Notes under the pieces: generated by a model | Database searches by the model: none | Seen by the model: only the letters and a program-made list of their open reading frames with translations | What the model was told of the DNA's origin: nothing | In this document: positions 9,217 to 41,730 of the stretch, one piece after another | Position numbering within the stretch: position 1 is the first letter of the stretch | Layout: every line of letters starts with the position of its first letter | Assembly (NCBI RefSeq): GCF_900114745.1 | Contig: NZ_FOUB01000009.1 | Span: 1-64,000 of the forward strand | Reading direction: 5' to 3' | Length of the DNA: 64,000 nt | Origin: Nitrosomonas communis | GTDB taxonomy: Bacteria > Pseudomonadota > Gammaproteobacteria > Burkholderiales > Nitrosomonadaceae | Program-made: the position numbers and the translations under genes

Positions 9217-9525
9217 ATGAGAACAAGAACAAAAACGAACACGCCAGTAAGATTTTTATCTGTAATGTTATTGAGTGCTGCTTTAGTAGCTCCCACGATA
9301 GTTGAAGCCAGACGAGGCCATCATCATCATAATCATCATACCCAACATCATCACCATAACCATAACCAACATCGTCATCACCATAAACATCATCATTACA
9401 ACACACAAAATATTTATTACCATCAACCTTATTACCCAACCGCACCTGTATATGGCGTAACACCAGGCAGGTATTTTCTGGGTGTTAATACGGGTAATGT
9501 TGGCTTTGTGTTGTCGGGCTATTAA
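9217..9525 (+). CDS. Histidine-rich secreted protein (paralogue 2)
   Basis: The 102-residue product parallels the 6485 gene: signal peptide MRTRTKTNTPVRFLSVMLLS with cleavage around IVEA, a His/Asn tract at ~33-66, and the conserved tail NTQNIYYHQPYYPTAPVYG then GRYFLGVN and VGFVLSGY. AAGGAGGTG gives a strong ribosome site. The promoter region (9050-9180) is also homologous to that at 6340-6470, so the whole unit was duplicated. The conserved Tyr/Pro tail in both copies suggests selection on more than the histidines. Probable role: periplasmic metal binding or storage (inference). Confidence 0.75.
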   Translation: MRTRTKTNTPVRFLSVMLLSAALVAPTIVEARRGHHHHNHHTQHHHHNHNQHRHHHKHHHYNTQNIYYHQPYYPTAPVYGVTPGRYFLGVNTGNVGFVLSGY

Positions 9526-9743
9526 GTCGGAATTTTCTTCAGGCTGGTGTGTACATGAAGAACGTGTGAATCGTTAGAGATACTTTACTAGGTTTTAAAA
9601 GCTAGTTTCAACTTTAATATTAGAAGCTTTGTAAAATAAAGGTTTTCGAGATAAGTAAGAGTGAGAAATTTTGTTTATCTGCAATTAGGTAAATAGCATG
9701 AATCTTATAATCATTAGCAAAAACAAACTGGAGCATAATATTT

Positions 9744-28638: not shown

Positions 28639-28741
28639 ATTCCATTCCCAAATCAAAAATGACGCGAAGGCGAGTCGCAGATAGTATGAATAATACGGCA
28701 AGGTGAAGTCGACAAAGTCAATTTTGATTTAGAAATGGAAT
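28639..28741. mobile_element. MITE-like element, copy 3 (103 bp)
   Basis: It has the family ends ATTCCATTCCCAAATCAAAA and TTTTGATTTAGAAATGGAAT and the shared core. It lies in the gnd relic and only ~76 bases upstream of zwf, where it could affect zwf expression. Confidence 0.85.
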
Positions 28742-28934
28742 GACCTTCCGTGGCGAAACGGATCGTGCCAGTGAGAGCGCTTGTATGAATGGCTGTAGGC
28801 GTCCGGTTTCCTTGACTAGCGGCCTCGGCCACGTCAAATGTGCGGTTCATTACCACTATTTTCATGCCTTTCCGGGCAAAACGGTGCGCCATATTATCGC
28901 CCATCTGCCCTAAACTCATGATGCCGAATTTCAT
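28653..28934 (-). pseudogene. gnd: Truncated 6-phosphogluconate dehydrogenase gene ending in a MITE
   Basis: The first codons read MKFGIMSLGQMGDNMAHRF then ARKGMKIVVMNRTFDVAEAA, the N-terminal NADP-binding fold of decarboxylating 6-phosphogluconate dehydrogenase. After ~64 codons the frame enters MITE copy 3, which supplies a 29-residue tail and the stop. About 80% of the gene is missing. The usual gnd-zwf pairing supports the identity. The oxidative pentose phosphate route would need another gnd elsewhere. Confidence 0.7.
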
Positions 28935-30920: not shown

Positions 30921-31126
30921 GGTTTTGGGTTAACATCAATTTGATTTATCAAATAGGTAAAGAGATGAACCGTGCGATCAAAAGCAGTGCGTAGCGCATA
31001 AAATCATTCGGTTAGCATCGACAAGCATTCCCACGCACAAAAATGCCCTATCTAACCTCAACCATAAGTTTGACAACGCTACTGAAGTTTTGTTGAAGTT
31101 TATAATCCTAAAAACCGTTTTTAGGA

Positions 31127-32242
31127 TTATTTATAAATTTGATGGCGCCGCTGCCAAAAAGGTGCATCAGGCCAACGTTGTTCCTGTTGATAATATTCAC
31201 GCCTGGTTGCTAGATAAGTATCAAACTCTCGATTCATCAACGCATGATATTTGGCACTGCCGCTTTCGTCATCGCGTAGATAGTGATCAGCGATAGCGTA
31301 GGAAGCAAACAATGACGATCTCAGTGCTTTGATAATTCCTTGGGAGGATAAAGGGTCAAAACTGGAAATCGCATCCCCTACCGCCAGCATGTTAGGTGGA
31401 TAAGCACAAGCGAAATAACGTGAGGATGCTGGCCAAATCAGGGGTGGCGACAAGGGACAGCCAGTGGCAACCAGCGGCCTGATATACTGGGTTTCAGCTA
31501 AATATTGCAGCCAGGTCGATAATTGTGCTACCTGTAATTGACGCGCTATATCGATATCTGTCATCAACATGGCTACTCTGCGGTTACCGGGAATCGCAGC
31601 GGTATACCACCAGCCATTTCGAAATGCTTCGATCACGGCAGCATCGGTACTAAACGCTTCCGACGGCGCACGCTGTTCAAAAAAAATCGAGCAAGCCACT
31701 AACCGATCAAACTTGATCGGCACCCGTTTCAGCAATCGCGAACATATTGCATCACGCCCGCTGGCATCTACCACATAACGCGCAGAAAATCTGCCAGCTG
31801 TACCACAATCGATGAGCCAACCATTTTCGTCTTTCTTGAGCGAGCACACTCGTGCCGATAGAATTTCTGTGCCACAGTGCACGGCTTCAGTGATCAGCAT
31901 GCGGTCAAAGCATTGGCGGTCTAGTCGCCATCCGGTATGGTAGACATGTAGAAAAAATTCATTGCTGATTAATTCGGGGCCACCCCATGCGCTCAAGGTG
32001 CGAAAAGAGGGACTATGACCGGTCTGCTCGAAAGATGAACTTACGCCTAAATGATCAAGGAACGGTTTGATAGTGGGAGGGACCGACTCACCGATGCGGA
32101 AAGGGATGTTTTTTCCCGCATCGGCGAGGCAGACGCGTAAGCTGGGGATAACCTGGCTAAGAGAAATCGCTACGGCTGCCCCGGCGGGACCAGCACCGAC
32201 GATAAAGACATCGTAAGCAGCGCTACTCGCTTTTGACGGCAT
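31127..32242 (-). CDS. LodB-type FAD-dependent oxidoreductase (CTQ maturation partner)
   Basis: The ATG at 32242 (MPSKASSAAYDVFIVGAGPA) is chosen: it directly precedes the Rossmann GAGPAG, and the upstream part of the open frame overlaps the continuing frame of the small gene at 32223-32639. The ~371-residue flavoprotein has the FAD loop at ~12-20, VVDASGRDAICSRLL in the middle and LAVGDAISSFDPLSSQGI near residue 285, as in tryptophan-halogenase-like and LodB/GoxB proteins. LodB proteins help form the quinone cofactor of their LodA partner, which lies two genes upstream. Confidence 0.82.
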   Translation of the reverse strand: MPSKASSAAYDVFIVGAGPAGAAVAISLSQVIPSLRVCLADAGKNIPFRIGESVPPTIKPFLDHLGVSSSFEQTGHSPSFRTLSAWGGPELISNEFFLHVYHTGWRLDRQCFDRMLITEAVHCGTEILSARVCSLKKDENGWLIDCGTAGRFSARYVVDASGRDAICSRLLKRVPIKFDRLVACSIFFEQRAPSEAFSTDAAVIEAFRNGWWYTAAIPGNRRVAMLMTDIDIARQLQVAQLSTWLQYLAETQYIRPLVATGCPLSPPLIWPASSRYFACAYPPNMLAVGDAISSFDPLSSQGIIKALRSSLFASYAIADHYLRDDESGSAKYHALMNREFDTYLATRREYYQQEQRWPDAPFWQRRHQIYK

Positions 32243-32639
32243 AGAACGAGGCCACGACTCCTGCAGGGGCCACGGTACCCGGTTCGCTACCGGAATGAGG
32301 AATGGTACGGATGACCGAGCCAATAATTGCTGGTCGCTGCTGAACACCATTGGGCCAATGAGAGACCAGATAGCCTTCGTAATCGTAAATTCATTGCTCA
32401 CCACTGACAATGCCTACCCCTTGCAAACGCACACGCATAGGAGTACCGTATTCTCGCGAACCTTTTAGTGCCAAAGACCAGCCGGGGCCGCCGATAACGC
32501 CACTCAGGATTTGCATCGGATCTTCATTGATTTCGATGGCACCACGGCCGAATTCGAGGTTATTAAAGTCCTGATTTACATCTGGGTTATTCAACAAACT
32601 GCGATAAGTCCATTTACCAACAAATGGATTGTCATTCAT
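32223..32639 (-). pseudogene. Small gene of the CTQ-oxidase cluster interrupted by one in-frame TGA
   Basis: From the ATG at 32639 (AGGAGT upstream) 82 codons run to a TGA at 32391-32393. In the same frame the sense continues as IYDYEGYLVSHWPNGVQQRP and IRTIPHSGSEPGTVAPAGVV to a TAG at 32223, giving 138 codons in all and overlapping the LodB start by 20 bases. The protein begins NPFVGKWTYRSLLNN and resembles a small lipocalin-like fold. A single change from a sense codon such as TGG would explain the stop; readthrough is the alternative. Role unknown. Confidence 0.6.
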
Positions 32640-32654
32640 GGAGATACTCCTTCT

Positions 32655-34964
32655 TTAAGGTTCCTTGCTGGGATTAATGATCGAACTTATTTGCGGATTG
32701 GGTGCGACCAGGTGCTCGCTGCCCCACCGCTCAATGCTGTAATAGCGATTATCCGGCCCCGTGGAAGGCGTGGTGTCGCTATCGGTTAAATAAGGATTGC
32801 GGATGATGAAACCCAATTTCCACCATTCGCTGACCATCTTCAGATCGCCAGCGTGCGTCTGCTGGATGCCACGGCTCCAAGTAGTCCAGGTAGTCACTGG
32901 CTCACCATTGCTGAATCCGATTAATTCATTGGACTGCAGCGGTCTATGGGCTGGCCACCAGAGCGTATTCCATACCTTTTCTTCACGTTTGAGTCGCTGA
33001 TCGTTTTCGCTGCCGGGGTAAAGATTGTTCCAATCGGCATAGGTAATGTTGTTGGGATTGGTTGTGCACTCGTTGAAATCCGCTTGCCAGGGTACTGCCA
33101 TGTATTTGGTCAAATCGCCCGGCTGCAGACCCACAGCGAAATCGTTGTCTTGGCTTAGTGGATTCTCTATGTTGAAATTCAATTCTTCGATGACGCTGGT
33201 CGGCTGTCGGTTTTGGTTAGCCTGTGCTGCAGACTGCAAAAAATCGGACCAACTTCGATCCACCTTGATCCGGTAAGGCTCCCAATAAATGGATGGATTG
33301 CGGATGATCCAGTTCAGTTCGGCACCAGGACAAAACGCACCGCCCAAGGCATTGCTGAGCACGCCACGATCTAATTCACGACCGGTTTTAGGTGGCGTAG
33401 TAGGATAAGGAAAAAACACCGGATAGGTTTTCGGGTCGATCCAGCCCTCCTCCATTTCGTTGATAAAATTGCCTTCTGCCCATTGCTTCAATATGAAGAG
33501 CTGATAATCAGTGAGGCGTAAAAACTTGGTCACCACCTCGTTCGTCAACGGATTATCGCCGCACAACAGTGGCATCAGCGGTAGATTGTGCACCCGGCTG
33601 CCGACTTTGTCTTCCAGTTTGAACTCATTGTCTTCTCCGCTACGACGCAACAAATCAAACAAAAACCGCCGCATTGTACCATAAGGATCGTCTTCCTTAT
33701 CCTCAGGCTTATGTTGAGTTGCTATGTAGGCTTCACCTAAACAAGCATCGCGACAAATCGCCGTAGAATCATCGATAATAACCTTTTTTGCCATTTGCTT
33801 CCGCGTGTAACCGGGCGTTTGTCCTATCTTATAGGGATCAAAGGTACCACGCTGCTCCTGATCATGGGGAAAATTGGATTGTGCCAGGATGTCGCTAAGA
33901 TACAGGAACTCGTTCGGCCTGAACAGAATCGGCCAGATATCACGGTAAAACCAGGGTTTATAGTCTTTATTCCAGGTAAGTCGGCTGGCTTGCCATTGAC
34001 TCAATGCAGTCTGGTCATGGATCGAAATGGTTTCTGGACAATCGAAACTACCTAGCTGGCCATAGAGACTAGTGTCGTAAGCGAATTCGCGCAGATATAA
34101 ATCGTACAGCACATCATCCATGGTAATCATATCGAGAATCTGGGGAACAAAGCGTGGATAACCTACCACCACCCACGCTGGGTATTCCACATCGATATAA
34201 CGTATGGCGCCGACCTGGTCGGAATACATTACCAGCCTGGCCATCACTGGACCGTCAGAAACATCATCGTACCAGCCATCGTTGTTGGCGTAATGGGAAA
34301 TATGGGGCTCACCTGGCCCAGACTGTTCACTGCCGGAATGGCCCAATCCACCCAGCACTAATAGCCGACCGCTATCATCAGTAAGAATTTCACCCAAGGT
34401 ATCAATGTCATGGGGTTGCAGACCTTGCGGTGGGAAAGTGGTGGCATAAACGCCATTGCCGGAACGGTCGAAACTGGCACGACGCAAATTGGTACTGTTC
34501 ACACTACGCGGACCGGGATCGATGATCAAACGGTCGCGATTTTGCACGGATGCATTGCGGCGCGGATAATCGGCGGCATAGCCATGCTCGCCAGAACGTT
34601 CATTAAATTCGTACCAGGATGCTTTTTTATTAGCCAGATAAACCCGCCATTGGATATCAATGAGCTTGCCGCGGTTGCCGCCGCCCTCGACCGGATCACC
34701 CAACTTAAGTGGACGCCCCGCCGGCGTGTCATCGTCGTAAACAAATACCTGAAAACGGGCCGCTTGACGTTTCACCCGACCATTTTTATCCTTAAAATTT
34801 TTAACTAATACTGGGCCAGTAAGATCATCGGACAGAATCGGGTTGCCGGCCGAATCACAAGCTTGCGGCAGTCCAGCAGGTATTTCAGGTGCGATATAAA
34901 ATTCGGTTTCGCTATTGCCCAAGCGAGCGATACCCATCCCCGGATGGATTTTGTAAATTGACAC
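32655..34964 (-). CDS. LodA-family quinoprotein amino-acid oxidase (CTQ cofactor)
   Basis: The start is a GTG at 34964 with AGGAGA upstream. The 769-residue protein has the family N-terminus MSIYKIHPGMGIARLGNS, and both residues that form cysteine tryptophylquinone in LodA are in place: Cys545 in NALGGAFCPGAE and Trp626 in YMAVPWQADFNEC. Known members oxidise the epsilon-amino group of lysine (LodA) or glycine (GoxA), releasing ammonia and hydrogen peroxide; LodA is antimicrobial. No signal peptide is seen. It lies 17 bases after the tyrosinase gene and 15 bases before the small gene, so all are likely one operon. The substrate is unknown. Confidence 0.88.
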   Translation of the reverse strand: MSIYKIHPGMGIARLGNSETEFYIAPEIPAGLPQACDSAGNPILSDDLTGPVLVKNFKDKNGRVKRQAARFQVFVYDDDTPAGRPLKLGDPVEGGGNRGKLIDIQWRVYLANKKASWYEFNERSGEHGYAADYPRRNASVQNRDRLIIDPGPRSVNSTNLRRASFDRSGNGVYATTFPPQGLQPHDIDTLGEILTDDSGRLLVLGGLGHSGSEQSGPGEPHISHYANNDGWYDDVSDGPVMARLVMYSDQVGAIRYIDVEYPAWVVVGYPRFVPQILDMITMDDVLYDLYLREFAYDTSLYGQLGSFDCPETISIHDQTALSQWQASRLTWNKDYKPWFYRDIWPILFRPNEFLYLSDILAQSNFPHDQEQRGTFDPYKIGQTPGYTRKQMAKKVIIDDSTAICRDACLGEAYIATQHKPEDKEDDPYGTMRRFLFDLLRRSGEDNEFKLEDKVGSRVHNLPLMPLLCGDNPLTNEVVTKFLRLTDYQLFILKQWAEGNFINEMEEGWIDPKTYPVFFPYPTTPPKTGRELDRGVLSNALGGAFCPGAELNWIIRNPSIYWEPYRIKVDRSWSDFLQSAAQANQNRQPTSVIEELNFNIENPLSQDNDFAVGLQPGDLTKYMAVPWQADFNECTTNPNNITYADWNNLYPGSENDQRLKREEKVWNTLWWPAHRPLQSNELIGFSNGEPVTTWTTWSRGIQQTHAGDLKMVSEWWKLGFIIRNPYLTDSDTTPSTGPDNRYYSIERWGSEHLVAPNPQISSIINPSKEP

Positions 34965-34981
34965 TAGATTATCTCCTGTAA

Positions 34982-37081
34982 TCAGTCGAGAAAGTTCAGC
35001 GAAACACCTTCCAGCTTGAGAAGGTCAATATCCTCCTCATAGTCGGCACCGATCACGACTAGTGTGATTTGCAATTGATCACAACCTGTTGCCAGCAGCT
35101 TCCTGGCGCAGTCGGTAACGTCTATGCGGTGGTTGCGCGGCGTGTTGTGGTTGCGCGTTCTGTGATCGTAGTCACGTGTCCTCGGCGCGGGCGTGGCGCA
35201 GTGACCGGGGCCGCCGTAGCAGGCGCCGTGGCCAAAGATGGAAATGTATCCAGCAAAATGCGGATTATTCTGCAATGGTGTTTTTGCGTCAGCACCTGCC
35301 TGGTTGATGAAAGCGCGGATGAAACAGGAACGCGACAACTGGGGTACCCAGTGCAAACGAATCTCCGCTTTGCGAAAACCTTGGATAAGCTCACTGACTG
35401 GTATCGGCTTAGAAATGATGCGGCCCACCGGCCCATCCAGTCCTACTGGAATAAAATGGGAGCTGCGCACATATTCATAACCAAAACGGGCCGCATCCAA
35501 GGTATCACGCACGGTGTAGTTCCACGGTGACAAAATGGCGTCCAGTTCCACTGGGGTGGCACTGGGATTGAGTCGCTGCCATTCCCACCACAGTCGATCC
35601 ACGTTGACGTGGATCGGCCAGAATACTGGATCGTAGGAAGCGGTCAAATTGCTGAACATATCGCCGAATTGCGGCTGGCTGTACATGTCGGAACGAGAAT
35701 GGAAGCGGCGTCCCCCAGCCCGCACCATGGCGTTGCGCCGCTCACCCAGAGTATTAGGCGCAGTGTGACAAGCAGCCATACAGGCATCCTGATAGGTAGT
35801 GTTGTCGCCATAATAGGGATTCATTCCACCCGTCCAAATATGCATGGTGTTGTGCGGATTTTGATCGAGAAACCCAAAGGACGCGTCGTAAATGCTGCCC
35901 CCGCCAAAATCGCGGAAATTGTTGAGACTGAGAATCTGCCGTATATCTTCCGCTGATGGATAGTGATAATGAATCGCTTCGTTGATGGTTTTGCCGCCGT
36001 ATTCGGCTGGAAAACGCAGCGGATACCAGAACGGATTAGACGCCAGCAAAGCATCGATCATGCGCTGGCGATTGGCATCGTCCGGCTGAGGTGTGACATG
36101 CTGGTAGCCGATATCATTGTAAACGTAGCGAAAAAATAAACTTTGTGAAGTAAAACGCTGCCTTTGTCTGGCCAATTCCAGGAACGCATTTTCCTGCTCT
36201 GCGGAAGGTCTAGGGTTGAGTTCGCCAACCAGTTTCTGTGCCTGTTCCATGGTCAAAAATGCCTGGAAGAACTTCGGAATAATCCAGCCTTTCTGAGCAC
36301 ATTCCGGCCGATATTGCGGCATCACCCAATCCCAATAAGGCAACATGATGTCTGGGTCGAAATCCTGCAAATCCTGCTCGAACTCGTACAGATAAGCCCG
36401 GTGCCAAGCGAGAAATCGCTCCCAGCCGTGCTGGCAGTGGTTTTGGTGAATTAATGCCTGATTGTTATAACTGCGTGCATCTTCTGGCCAATGGTTGAGA
36501 CTGTAGAGATGGCGAAACGCATCGCCTAGCCGCTTGAGCTCGGTTTCGCTCATACAGTCGAGGTTACTTCGTTGGCGTAACTCACCAGGCCGACTGGGGA
36601 TACGTGTCCCTTTGACTGCCAGATCCAGTTCTGCAATTTCCTGCACTGATACCCTCGTCATTTGAGCCTCGCTTTGCTGTACCCCTAGCTCTATAGTCTG
36701 GACGTGATCATCGTCCGGGCAACCGTCATCTATCCAATCGCTGATATACTCAATATCCTCGACTGACACCGCTTTTCCACCCCAGGGCAAACGGGGAAAT
36801 TGGGTGCCATCGAATGGGGATTCACCTTTTAGTCCACGTATCAATGCAGAGGCAGCGCCTCGACTGTAGCCTGCTTGATCAGCCACATGACCGCAACAGG
36901 TCTTTGCAGCTTCCGGCGCGATCAGGCGAATGCCGTAAAGGCTCGCCTCTTTCAGTTGTTGAACGCCATAATCCCAGAATTGTCCTATTCCGCCATAATC
37001 TGCATGACTGCCCTGAGCTGCTTCATTCAGAATTTCCCTAATTCGTTGGTAACGTGTAATTCTGGATTGTTGTATCGACAT
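34982..37081 (-). CDS. Tyrosinase-domain copper protein with N-terminal extension
   Basis: The 699-residue protein holds a type-3 copper centre. CuA: His212/215, His218 and His227 in LIHQNHCQHGWERFLAWHRA. CuB: His410, His414 (NPHNTMHIWTG) and His491 (DPVFWPIHVNVDRLWWEW). Cys216-Gln-His218 matches the Cys-x-His thioether of fungal tyrosinases. Residues 1-150 form an extra domain (CCGH at 62-65, then LPWGGKAVSVEDIEYISDWI, DDGCP) that resembles degenerate cytochrome-c-like domains. The C-terminal ~130 residues hold a Cys/His-rich loop. It would oxidise phenols to quinones. First gene of the LodA-LodB operon. Confidence 0.88.
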   Translation of the reverse strand: MSIQQSRITRYQRIREILNEAAQGSHADYGGIGQFWDYGVQQLKEASLYGIRLIAPEAAKTCCGHVADQAGYSRGAASALIRGLKGESPFDGTQFPRLPWGGKAVSVEDIEYISDWIDDGCPDDDHVQTIELGVQQSEAQMTRVSVQEIAELDLAVKGTRIPSRPGELRQRSNLDCMSETELKRLGDAFRHLYSLNHWPEDARSYNNQALIHQNHCQHGWERFLAWHRAYLYEFEQDLQDFDPDIMLPYWDWVMPQYRPECAQKGWIIPKFFQAFLTMEQAQKLVGELNPRPSAEQENAFLELARQRQRFTSQSLFFRYVYNDIGYQHVTPQPDDANRQRMIDALLASNPFWYPLRFPAEYGGKTINEAIHYHYPSAEDIRQILSLNNFRDFGGGSIYDASFGFLDQNPHNTMHIWTGGMNPYYGDNTTYQDACMAACHTAPNTLGERRNAMVRAGGRRFHSRSDMYSQPQFGDMFSNLTASYDPVFWPIHVNVDRLWWEWQRLNPSATPVELDAILSPWNYTVRDTLDAARFGYEYVRSSHFIPVGLDGPVGRIISKPIPVSELIQGFRKAEIRLHWVPQLSRSCFIRAFINQAGADAKTPLQNNPHFAGYISIFGHGACYGGPGHCATPAPRTRDYDHRTRNHNTPRNHRIDVTDCARKLLATGCDQLQITLVVIGADYEEDIDLLKLEGVSLNFLD

Positions 37082-37237
37082 AGAAAACCTATTTGATAAT
37101 AAAGGATTAGCGCTCTATTGGGTAATGATTCATTTTTCACATTTCATCCGATCAATATCGGCAGCGTTACTTACGATCAGTCTGAGGTAAGTATTCACAA
37201 TGCATAGCAACGTTGAATTAAAATTGCTCTAATAGAA

Positions 37238-38938
37238 TCAATGAGCATGTGCACGGGGAGTGTTCACAACTTCTTCAACCTCCATCATGCCAAGGTCTTC
37301 ATGGTCCAGAATGTGACAATGCATAACAAATTTACCAATGTAGTCACGATACTGGGTATAGATGTTGGTAACAGTCGGTCCCTGGACCAATAGGGTGTCT
37401 TTCCATACCAATTGATCATCGCCGTCCGGTCCTTTACGTACCCATTGGAATGGATTGACGTGGATATGGAATACATGTGGCGGTGGTGAGGAAGGTGGTT
37501 GACCGATACCATTCGGTACACCGCTAGGATCGCCCACTGTGGTCAGCGCCCACATATCAGTGGCGTTCAACGGTAATTGGCGCACATGATCAGGATTGAA
37601 GGCACGGTAGTTGACTTGGAAGTAATTTTTCTCACCCTTCATATCTTGACCGAGCTTGAAGACAACCTCCTGCACACCCAAAGCAGTTTTTCTCAAATCA
37701 ATGTTGCCAAATGGTGCCAGCGGAGCCATTTCTTCGTTGGTCGGTAAAGCCATGTCCTCGATCTCATCCGTAACCCTAAGAATGGCCAGCAGGTTCTCCG
37801 ACTCCTCTACTTGCCGCAAGGATTTTCTTGATGAAGTAGGCTGATCGATGATGCGATAATCGCCGGCTTTCATGCTTGCTTTAATCAAGATATCGCTACG
37901 GTAGCCCGGCTGGAGATCGATCGGTGTTCCTGCCTTCCAGGTATCGACGCGCCCCAAGTAATTACTGTCCAAGGCAATTTCGTGCAGATCATGCCCTTCT
38001 ACTACGAAAGCAATCGACTCACGAAAGGCGGTATCAATCAAACGCCAGCGCTGTACTTCACCACGTTTCATGGTGATGACGGGAACGATCTGGCCGTTGA
38101 TAGTGATACGACGGTGCGAGCATGGCCAAGTGTCTTTATTACTCGCTGAATGACATTCCTTGGGGTTAGGATTGGATGGTCCGGGAAAAAGGCTGGTTAT
38201 GTTGTTGAGCTTCCCTTTCTGATCATAAAGAATAGTTTGCAGTACAAATATTTTCTCATTGGCATTGGCGGCAAGCAGCGTCTTCGGTGTTGTCTTTGGG
38301 TCATCTTCTATGACAATAGCACCCGCCATGCCGCTACCTACCTGAATAGAGGTGGAGCCGTGAGCATGCGCATGATACCAGTAAGAACCAATCGGATGGT
38401 TGGCTGGCAGTTTCACCTCATACGGGAATTGGCTTTGCGGAGCGATATCCAGCAAAACATTATCACTATTGCCTGTGGGAGAGACATGCAAGCCGTGGTA
38501 GTGCATGTTAGTTGTGTTGAATGAAGCAGGTATCGTGGCGAGATAGGCATTTTTATTCTCTTGTTCAAACTGCGCCTGAACTTCATTTGCTGTTTCTTTG
38601 GGCAGCTGATTGTTGAGCAGCAGATTGATCACATCCCCTTGACGAACGCGCAAAGTGGGGCCGACCAATTGGCCATTGTAAGTACGCAGCGTAACCGGAC
38701 AACCAGCGATGGAAATGATAGCAGGATCGGTATACTGAACAGTGAAGCTGGTGTCCAGCACGCCATCTTTGGAACGTATCTCAGGTGGATTCTGGAAGGG
38801 GGCGTAGCCGTATTTTTGAATATCAATATTTTGGTAAGCACATGCTGGATTAACGGAATTATATCCAGCCATAACCGTGTTTGCGCAGAGCGACAAACCA
38901 AACGCAATTATCCCAAGCGGGATGAAGGCGCGTTGCAT
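37238..38938 (-). CDS. Secreted multicopper oxidase (laccase-like)
   Basis: The 566-residue protein has a signal peptide (cleaved near TVMAGYN). All copper sites are present: His146 and His148 in NMHYHGLH, His189 and His191 in YWYHAHAHG, HVFHIHVNPF near residue 480-490, and HCHILDHEDLGMM near the end with the type-1 Cys541, His546 and Met551. It oxidises phenols, metal ions or other one-electron donors with O2 in the periplasm. GGAGAG precedes the ATG. It lies 156 bases upstream of the tyrosinase gene on the same strand, so it may share its promoter. Confidence 0.92.
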   Translation of the reverse strand: MQRAFIPLGIIAFGLSLCANTVMAGYNSVNPACAYQNIDIQKYGYAPFQNPPEIRSKDGVLDTSFTVQYTDPAIISIAGCPVTLRTYNGQLVGPTLRVRQGDVINLLLNNQLPKETANEVQAQFEQENKNAYLATIPASFNTTNMHYHGLHVSPTGNSDNVLLDIAPQSQFPYEVKLPANHPIGSYWYHAHAHGSTSIQVGSGMAGAIVIEDDPKTTPKTLLAANANEKIFVLQTILYDQKGKLNNITSLFPGPSNPNPKECHSASNKDTWPCSHRRITINGQIVPVITMKRGEVQRWRLIDTAFRESIAFVVEGHDLHEIALDSNYLGRVDTWKAGTPIDLQPGYRSDILIKASMKAGDYRIIDQPTSSRKSLRQVEESENLLAILRVTDEIEDMALPTNEEMAPLAPFGNIDLRKTALGVQEVVFKLGQDMKGEKNYFQVNYRAFNPDHVRQLPLNATDMWALTTVGDPSGVPNGIGQPPSSPPPHVFHIHVNPFQWVRKGPDGDDQLVWKDTLLVQGPTVTNIYTQYRDYIGKFVMHCHILDHEDLGMMEVEEVVNTPRAHAH

Positions 38939-39311: not shown

Positions 39312-39725
39312 TTAAGTGAGGGTTTCTTCTCGCAAAACATGCAAGCCACCAAGCCCGGCTATCAGGTTAACAAAGAAGTTAAAGGGGCTGCGATGGTGGG
39401 AATGCTCGATTTGCGAGATATTTTTCAATTGCTCATTGACCGTCTCAATGATCGAGCGTTTGCGCAACAAGAGTTTGTGAAATAACGGCAACAGCTTGCT
39501 TTTCATGTTCTTGCGCTGTTTGGTGACGAGTTGTACACCCTGCTCCCAGAGTTGCTCAAAGAGTGGCTGCGAGATGTAACCCCGGCCGCTAAAGCGTTTC
39601 CCAAATAAGGAGCATGCCAGCTCCGGTACCGGATCACGGTTATCAACATTGCCCGCTGTTATTTTCATTCCCAGCAATTCTCCTTGATCATTGATGAGTA
39701 AATATCCCCGGAAAAACTGTTTTAT
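39312..39725 (-). pseudogene. IS982-family transposase, C-terminal fragment
   Basis: The frame reads FFRGYLLINDQGELLGMKIT then AGNVDNRDPVPEL, TKQRKNMKSKLLPL, LLRKRSIIETVNEQLKNIS and QIEHSHHRSPFNFFVNL, the second half of an IS982 transposase with its last catalytic Glu. The N-terminal half is missing; the fragment starts at about 39725, directly against the RAYT relic. Confidence 0.8.
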
Positions 39726-40389: not shown

Positions 40390-41730
40390 CTAACGGCTCA
40401 TCATTTCCGCATCGAGCTGTTTTGCTAAATCCTGCAAGGCGGGAGAAATCGTAACCGGGTAGGCAGTAGCCGTTTCCAAGGCGCTCATGGCTTTCGGCAG
40501 GCGGGTGTAGCCTGCCAATGTCAGCTGACGTATGTCGTGTAAGGGTCTTTTCGGATGAATGCGTTGTCCTGCCAACATGACGGGCTCAAGTAGCTGCTGC
40601 CCATCATAAGGATCATTTTCTACTAGCGCCACAATATCATGGCTCAACTCACCATCGGGTGTGTAATAACGGTAAACTTGCTTTCTTCCGGGCCAGGTCG
40701 CTTTGCCTTCTGAGCGCTTACGGCGTGGCTTGCCAGCATATTCCTGCAATTTATAGGCACAGTCAAATGCAGGTGCATCCATGGAAACATCTAGTGCAGT
40801 ACCAATGCCAAAACCATCTATCGGCGCCTTCGCTGACAGCAGGGTTTGTAGTTTGTATTCATCCAGGTTGCCACTGGCAAATATGGTTGTATTATTTAAA
40901 CCTCCTTGATCAAGTATGTGGCGCACATTATGAGCATGGGCTGCTAAATCACCACTATCTAAGCGAACGCCATTGATATTGATATGATCTGCAGCAAGTT
41001 TCGGTGCTAATGTGACCACTTTTCTGGCTGCGGCTTCGGTGTCGTAGGTATCAATCAGCAAAACAACGTTATCCGGATTGGAGTAGGCAAAGCGCTCAAA
41101 AGCCGTCGACTCATCTACATGCGCTTGAATGTAGGAATGCGCCATGGTTCCAAATAAAGGAATATCGTACAATGCGCCTGCCAGAACAGTCGCTGTACCA
41201 GAAAACCCTGCCAGATAACTTGCCCGCGCTGCCAGTAAAGCTGCTTCGGCACCGTGCGCGCGACGCATACCAAAATCCACCAATAACTTATCCGGTGCGA
41301 TCAATACCGAGCGGGCAGCTTTGGAGGCGATCAGCGTTTCGAAATGAAGGAGATTGATGATACGTGACTCGATCAGTTGAGCTTGCGGTAAAGGAGCGGT
41401 TATTCGCAGGAAAGGCTCATGGGGAAAAAATAAAGTACCTTCAGGCATAGCATGCACATCACCGCTAAAACGAAACTGCTTCAAATAATCAATAAACGAA
41501 GGGTGAAAGCGTGGAGCGAGCCAGTCGAGTTCTTCGAGTGAAAATTCTAAGTTTTCGAGAAAATCCAGCAGCTCTTCTAATCCGGCTGCCACCATGAAAT
41601 TTCGACCAGGCGGTAGCTTACGGATAAACAACTCAAAGACAGCTGTTTCTTGCATGTCTTGCTCAAGATAACTTTGCAGCATCGTAAACTGATAAAGATC
41701 AGAGAGCAGCGGGCTGGAAAGTGGATTCAT
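40390..41730 (-). CDS. pncB: Nicotinate phosphoribosyltransferase
   Basis: The 446-residue protein opens LLSDLYQFTMLQSYLEQDMQ and has ELFIRKLPPGRNFMVAAGLE, FGMRRAHG and NGVRLDSGDLAAHA, the substrate-binding landmarks of nicotinate phosphoribosyltransferase. It makes nicotinate mononucleotide from nicotinate and PRPP with ATP in NAD salvage. Its start overlaps the end of the nicotinamidase-like gene by four bases (ATGA), so translation is coupled. It is last in a five-gene operon. Confidence 0.92.
   Translation of the reverse strand: MNPLSSPLLSDLYQFTMLQSYLEQDMQETAVFELFIRKLPPGRNFMVAAGLEELLDFLENLEFSLEELDWLAPRFHPSFIDYLKQFRFSGDVHAMPEGTLFFPHEPFLRITAPLPQAQLIESRIINLLHFETLIASKAARSVLIAPDKLLVDFGMRRAHGAEAALLAARASYLAGFSGTATVLAGALYDIPLFGTMAHSYIQAHVDESTAFERFAYSNPDNVVLLIDTYDTEAAARKVVTLAPKLAADHININGVRLDSGDLAAHAHNVRHILDQGGLNNTTIFASGNLDEYKLQTLLSAKAPIDGFGIGTALDVSMDAPAFDCAYKLQEYAGKPRRKRSEGKATWPGRKQVYRYYTPDGELSHDIVALVENDPYDGQQLLEPVMLAGQRIHPKRPLHDIRQLTLAGYTRLPKAMSALETATAYPVTISPALQDLAKQLDAEMMSR

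Follow-up and report, generated by a model that had tools for sequence, protein, structure and literature searches.

What does a small gene do between the genes for a quinone-cofactor oxidase and its flavoprotein partner, in a row that also holds a tyrosinase and a multicopper oxidase (MCO)? The question is raised by a module at positions 31127-38938 of a 64,000-nucleotide stretch of Nitrosomonas communis DNA (GCF_900114745.1, contig NZ_FOUB01000009.1, positions 1-64,000; here, the window), in which genes for a LodA-family cysteine tryptophylquinone (CTQ) oxidase and a LodB-type flavoprotein flank a small gene whose reading frame contains a TGA stop. From profile comparisons we conclude that the small protein is a stand-alone counterpart of the beta-barrel found in PvdP-type tyrosinases. 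A preliminary description, made from the sequence alone, had placed five genes on the minus strand with intergenic gaps of 17 and 15 bases in the cassette that runs from the tyrosinase gene through lodA and the small gene to lodB; both the placement and the gaps were confirmed, and Pfam returned matching names for the MCO, tyrosinase and LodA proteins.

The assignment is carried by two fusion proteins. When 85 genomes of the genus were scanned, 16 matched the small-protein family, and in one of them, G498, the match lay inside a 484-residue open frame. The corresponding 481 amino acid protein is a fusion of the barrel and a second domain that matches the pyoverdine tyrosinase PvdP (E 3.7e-68). 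A second barrel-tyrosinase fusion was found on plasmid pOM4 of Mesorhizobium onobrychidis, where it adjoins, on the other strand, genes for a FAD monooxygenase and for a LodA/GoxA-family oxidase that is only distantly related to the window LodA (approximately 31% identity in two segments). Both fused barrels are matched over their full length by the profile built from the small family (E 4.1e-36 and 2.2e-23). Alignment of the two fusions to 30 PvdP-like proteins spans positions 2-484, a range that takes in the barrel (hhalign probability 100). The G498 fusion was also matched by 35 of 198 Pseudomonadaceae genomes, mostly via the tyrosinase part and in one case from residue 5 on. According to a review, the PvdP chain begins with a beta-barrel and ends with a tyrosinase domain, and an inhibitor binds between the two (PMC9569983); the enzyme oxidises tyrosine inside a peptide (PMC6206403). 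At the level of profile matches, the product of the small gene thus corresponds to the barrel that precedes a PvdP-type tyrosinase domain in the fusions of a congener and a Mesorhizobium.

AlphaFold2 models the small protein with high confidence as a barrel of eight strands (pLDDT 92.4). The best Foldseek matches of this model are streptavidins, none of which reaches E 0.001, and VIA returned designed barrels, a domain of quinohemoprotein amine dehydrogenase and avidins with Z of approximately 11-14; PvdP chains are not among the best 50 matches listed by either program. The family and structure libraries, Pfam and NCBIfam included, hold no family for the small protein. Though the avidin family and the amine dehydrogenase domain have a similar eight-strand shape, kinship to either was rejected. 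None of 36 small proteins matches the Pfam avidin profile at E up to 1, and the profile comparison was not significant. For the amine dehydrogenase domain the likeness is one of fold (Z 13.2, root-mean-square deviation 2.4, 101 residues) with no profile match, and designed barrels score as high in VIA. Two side observations concern relatives of the protein: in a Gemmataceae locus (L098 9917..10423) it carries an N-terminal extension that, by eye, resembles a Tat signal and hints at export, and the MCO-small gene pair of Rhizobium etli p42d (L101; 6995..7387, 9246..9713) lies approximately 2 kb from a gene annotated as avidin/streptavidin family.

The operon itself is known. The preliminary description had held that these genes had not been described as one unit with the small gene, but Campillo-Brocal et al. 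(2015; PMC4417212) report that in 10 genomes the lodA and lodB genes of group ID are split by a gene for 138-142 amino acids and accompanied by tyrosinase and MCO genes. The group ID operons of that paper (its Fig. 1B, Bradyrhizobium japonicum USDA6) share with the window the split of lodA and lodB by a gene of approximately 138 codons, the tyrosinase and MCO genes and the CTQ residues. They differ in that the window small gene is interrupted by TGA and in the MCO, which is of a type common to Nitrosomonas and one Methylobacter. The window thus holds tyrosinase, MCO, lodA, small gene and lodB in a single region; the small gene reaches 138 codons only when the TGA is counted as a sense codon. 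By gene content and order, the cluster belongs to the published group ID type of lodA operon, its accessory gene being broken. PMC4417212 assigns neither domain nor function to the small protein of group ID. That paper was the only one returned by a search for the operon; an assignment of the small protein to the PvdP barrel was not found in print, nor was a paper joining PvdP with LodA, GoxA or tryptophylquinone, in a searched literature without most subscription papers. What appears to be new here is therefore the assignment of the group ID small protein to the barrel of PvdP-type tyrosinases.

The state of the small gene in the window needs separate consideration. It does lie between lodA and lodB as previously proposed, but the 82 amino acid open reading frame (ORF) first taken for the whole gene is merely the front of a 138-codon gene, as conserved sequence continues in frame past the TGA. 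One genome per species was scanned with an alignment of seven small proteins as query, which identified 65 small-gene loci; 64 of them lack an internal stop, and L070 has one near the C-terminus. The Trp at the TGA position is invariant in an alignment of 36 of the 65 proteins, and a product ending there would lack the three C-terminal strands of the eight in the modelled barrel. Relative to L063, there are 37 silent and 14 changing codon differences before the TGA, and 29 silent and five changing differences after it. As so few codons are changed beyond the TGA, the stop is either young or a sequencing error. In a weak relative of the small gene (L035 in G383), a TGA was seen by eye before the same EYDY motif, in a copy that also seems frame-shifted.

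That the cassette is a decaying relic in this genome, or else that the operon is intact and the stop an error, either of which would leave the 82 amino acid ORF without a role of its own, is in our judgement a good bet. The mostly silent differences from L063 fit it, the cassette is missing from two close relatives, and two of the 16 matching members of the genus, the window genome and G510, have a damaged small gene. Decay is opposed by the other four genes, which are open, and by LodB, which is under constraint. LodB is 58-64% identical to its counterparts in the five nearest relatives and 67% to that of Methylobacter L049, lower than LodA (82-84% and 79%, respectively), and relaxed selection was considered for this reason and rejected: the ratio of non-synonymous to synonymous substitution rates is approximately 0.10-0.14 where computable, with no sign of decay, though many synonymous rates are saturated and gave no ratio. 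Unless the stop base is a sequencing error, the module in the window genome is probably impaired.

Table 1. Features of the module and its surroundings (window positions)
Feature	Position	Strand	Evidence or remark
MCO	37238..38938	-	Pfam Cu-oxidase_3, Cu-oxidase_2, Cu-oxidase
Tyrosinase, 699 amino acids, N-terminal helical part and C-terminal beta part	34982..37081	-	PF00264, E 1.8e-34
LodA-family CTQ oxidase, group ID type, GTG start	32655..34964	-	Pfam LodA_N and LodA_C
Small barrel gene, 138 codons and stop, interrupted by TGA	32223..32639	-	Open part 32391..32639
In-frame TGA, codon 83, invariant-Trp position	32391..32393	-	
LodB-type flavoprotein, 371 amino acids, ATG start	31127..32242	-	NCBIfam LodB maturase, E 3.1e-83, below cut-off
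Stretch missing in two syntenic relatives (tyrosinase-lodA-small gene-lodB cassette and edges)	30955..37261	.	Comparison with G051 and G011

The residues expected of active enzymes are in place. From its PF00264 domain and six copper histidines (H212, H218, H227, H410, H414 and H491, invariant in 24 of 24 aligned homologues), the operon tyrosinase is classed as a type-3 copper tyrosinase; the structures nearest to its model in Foldseek are latent polyphenol oxidases. Its N-terminal part holds the conserved motifs SCCG, FPRLPWGG and WIDDGCP, which may resemble those of a degenerate cytochrome-like domain. Two further weak tyrosinase matches occur in the same genome (contigs C114 and C184 of G000), in open frames of 492 and 498 residues. 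In the MCO, thirteen residues (H146, H148, H189, H191, H193, H488, H491, H493, H540, C541, H542, H546 and M551) are invariant in 13 of 13 sequences, and the four MCO copper-ligand motifs are present. Its N-terminus was judged by eye to be signal-peptide-like.

For LodA, the CTQ had been proposed at Cys545 and Trp626. Both residues are conserved, yet alignment to solved LodA (3weu, 2ymw) matches them to other positions, and the CTQ residues of LodA, Cys516 and Trp581 (PMC4417212), align to window Cys633 and Trp670, which together with Asp629 are invariant in 23 of 23 aligned sequences. With both domains, both CTQ residues and a LodB-type neighbour, the window protein is assigned to the LodA/GoxA family of CTQ quinoproteins. 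Identity with the lysine oxidase LodA or the glycine oxidase GoxA equivalog was rejected, as the NCBIfam scores (318 bits against a cut-off of 600, and 178 bits against 750, respectively) are far too low. The LodB-type flavoprotein is a FAD protein in Pfam whose best NCBIfam matches are the LodB and GoxB maturases, both below cut-off, and its best solved relative is the peptidyl tryptophan dihydroxylase 7ctq. The overlap of small gene and lodB previously noted rested on a mechanical TTG start at 32410 and does not stand in that form; from the likely start, ATG 32242, lodB would share 20 bases with the full-length small gene. Such an overlapping ATG occurs at this place in 12 of 42 loci (elsewhere the script gave another start or none), and the lodB of Rhizobium ruizarguesonis plasmid p4 is annotated with an ATG at the corresponding position.

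The small gene occurs in rhizobia, methanotrophs, Burkholderia, Acidobacteriota, Planctomycetes and others. LodA lies directly upstream of it in 40 of the 65 loci; a tyrosinase lies upstream in all 37 LodA loci that could be assessed (three other contigs begin too close), LodB is present in 39 of the 40 (it was not found in L078), and an MCO lies within the stretch in 26, with approximately 10 kb available on both sides in six of the other 14. As this order is kept across phyla, it is more than chance. The remaining 25 loci, which include L051 with a mere LodA remnant, are more varied. In 11, among them Burkholderia and Andreprevotia loci, another tyrosinase adjoins the small gene (checked with Pfam in L045, L061 and L080); in a further 11 (ten Rhizobium loci, R. 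etli p42d among them, and L051) an MCO lies next to it and no tyrosinase was found. Of the last three loci, L072 has its MCO on the opposite strand, a tyrosinase-like match lies approximately 7 kb away in L098, and L099, with only 290 bases downstream, has neither.

Some other neighbours recur. A gene of the DJ-1/PfpI family was found near the small gene or LodA operon in 13 of 82 sources with one query and 14 with another (L041, L044, L045, L046, L047, L048, L053, L056, L058, L076, L098, L104 and L163), and none was found in the window. A CxxCH protein of approximately 590-670 amino acids, with no Pfam or NCBIfam family of note, is encoded next to the MCO in two relatives that lack the cassette and, at two remote loci, next to the small gene (L115 1992..3761, L116 10854..12623, L072 8201..9991 and L099 7935..9947). 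In Mesorhizobium sp. AR10 (L162 1899..7000), genes for an MCO, the small protein, a tyrosinase, a hypothetical protein and a cytochrome P460 family protein stand in a row.

Closer to N. communis, the small gene was found in nine of 101 relatives, and the same nine have LodA of the operon type and the long tyrosinase. Six further LodA matches are of other types, and weaker matches to other tyrosinases were seen in G000 and G018. The MCO occurs in 14 of the 101; its coordinates place it next to the tyrosinase in all nine cassette genomes, and in five it stands alone. Taken with the conserved order in the wider set, these counts bear out the view of the preliminary description that the genes form a joint oxidative module, and the check that it had suggested, a search of relatives for the gene order, found that order kept.

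Trees of LodA and MCO were midpoint-rooted, with long branches flagged by the program. The closest group to the window protein in the LodA tree comprises five other sequences, four of which carry the label Nitrosomonas (95/91); Methylobacter L049 joins next (100/100), and the whole lies within methanotrophs (100/99). The other Nitrosomonas group is far away, beside Aliikangiella, and the tree also includes Bradyrhizobium operons with the layout seen in the window. The MCO tree unites both Nitrosomonas groups with L049 in a single clade (100/100), and other MCO types are used by Bradyrhizobium and Mesorhizobium. Thus, two distant cassette versions in the genus are accompanied by a single MCO type.

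Two relatives, G051 and G011, share the neighbourhood of the window (glucose-6-phosphate dehydrogenase, ribonucleotide reductase, the MCO and the gene at 40390) and have no cassette. The sequences that flank window positions 30954 and 37262 are only approximately 0.17 and 0.28 kb apart in these genomes, and the cassette may have been gained in the window genome or lost in the other two. No insertion-marking element is among the matches listed for repeats at the cassette edges. The MCO and the gene at 40390 are 1.45 kb apart in the window and 0.2-0.4 kb apart in G051 and G011, and a transposase piece (Pfam DDE_Tnp_1_3; 39312..39677, minus strand) lies in this interval in the window. On the other side, a short ORF (28653..28934, minus strand) resembles the start of a dehydrogenase that is a 302 amino acid ORF in G011 (L114 5052..5960), and looks like a truncated dehydrogenase gene. 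A promoter and terminator scan gave 20 promoter-like sites against 15.6 expected and 15 terminator-like sites against 8.8, and was not used.

Because both fusions join the barrel to a PvdP-type tyrosinase, 11 of the 25 LodA-less loci pair the small gene with another tyrosinase, the gene order is conserved and the active-site residues are complete, we favour a reading, given a probability of roughly 0.5, in which a PvdP-like phenol oxidase is split between barrel and tyrosinase and stands next to a CTQ amine oxidase. The free barrel would dock on the separate tyrosinase and supply in trans what the PvdP barrel gives in cis, which might be substrate positioning, stability or copper loading. LodB would finish the CTQ of LodA, LodA would deaminate an amine or amino acid to an aldehyde, ammonia and peroxide, and the exported MCO could take the phenol oxidation further. 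The joint outcome would be the oxidation of a phenolic amine or peptide, or the building of a quinone pigment. PvdP of pseudomonads (6eys, 6eyv and 6rrp-6rrr) offers the parallel of a beta-barrel beside a type-3 copper domain, linked to the operon via the two fusions; it differs in that the operon barrel is a separate protein and the operon tyrosinase is PF00264-type, without the PvdP-type domain. The tyrosinase of Streptomyces, with its caddie MelC1 (PMC9454253), is likewise encoded beside a small beta-rich protein, but MelC1 is not among the listed sequence or fold matches of the small protein and the caddie gene is upstream of the tyrosinase.

Several observations weigh against a split enzyme. 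The free small proteins gave no significant direct match to PvdP barrels, so that the link runs via the two fusions. These match no Pfam family, and the PF00264-type operon tyrosinase is thus not of the PvdP type; it also has a C-terminal beta part of its own, like latent polyphenol oxidases. A group ID member without the small gene, Saccharophagus degradans, has been reported (PMC4417212), and in G510 the small gene is without its middle and the other four genes are open. The 11 LodA-less loci with an MCO and no detected tyrosinase point the same way.

Those 11 loci, together with the position of the small gene between lodA and lodB, both of which it overlaps in many loci, could instead mean that the barrel is a subunit, ligand carrier or maturation factor of the MCO or LodA, and that the tyrosinase link is only one use of it among others. 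The likeness of the fold to ligand-binding barrels and to a domain of the CTQ enzyme quinohemoprotein amine dehydrogenase would suit such a role. We consider it somewhat unlikely, as both fusions found are with a tyrosinase and none is with an MCO or LodA, avidin or amine dehydrogenase kinship has no sequence support, and the Burkholderia and Andreprevotia loci pair tyrosinase and small gene without LodA.

Slightly less plausible again is a secreted oxidase set whose peroxide and quinones hit competitors, with the small protein as a minor accessory. LodA is antimicrobial via peroxide, and in Marinomonas growth-phase control and the regulator PpoS are common to LodA, a tyrosinase and a laccase (PMC4417212, PMC2855505). 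Marinomonas mediterranea has a CTQ oxidase with a flavoprotein partner in common with the window. However, the genes lie apart there and its LodA is group IA, the window LodA falls far below the LodA and GoxA cut-offs, lysine oxidase activity was not detected in S. degradans, the one group ID species cited in PMC4417212, and the recurrent gene order is tighter than loose co-regulation requires.

It is a long shot that the split barrel-tyrosinase works on residues within proteins or peptides, as PvdP does on a peptide tyrosine (PMC6206403), and acts on LodA itself, first hydroxylating the CTQ Trp that LodB would then complete, which would make the operon a self-contained assembly line for a quinone cofactor. 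The first CTQ step in LodA is considered autocatalytic and copper-dependent (PMC7876137). The occurrence of barrel and tyrosinase without LodA speaks against this reading. Hardly credible is the earlier suggestion that LodA chemistry scavenges amine nitrogen for ammonia oxidation: LodA-type oxidation does set ammonia free (PMC4417212) and the window genome has an ammonia/methane monooxygenase gene, but the cassette is in just nine of 101 relatives, the small gene is in many groups outside the ammonia oxidisers, and the tyrosinase, MCO and barrel would be left unexplained.

Assigning the barrel gives the group ID small protein a testable role and would link CTQ enzymes with pyoverdine-type tyrosinases. 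The presence of one MCO type beside two distant cassettes, and of a fusion beside a further LodA, argues that phenol and amine oxidation are coupled through some common chemistry, and the broken barrel gene in the window genome may serve as a natural test of whether the barrel is needed.

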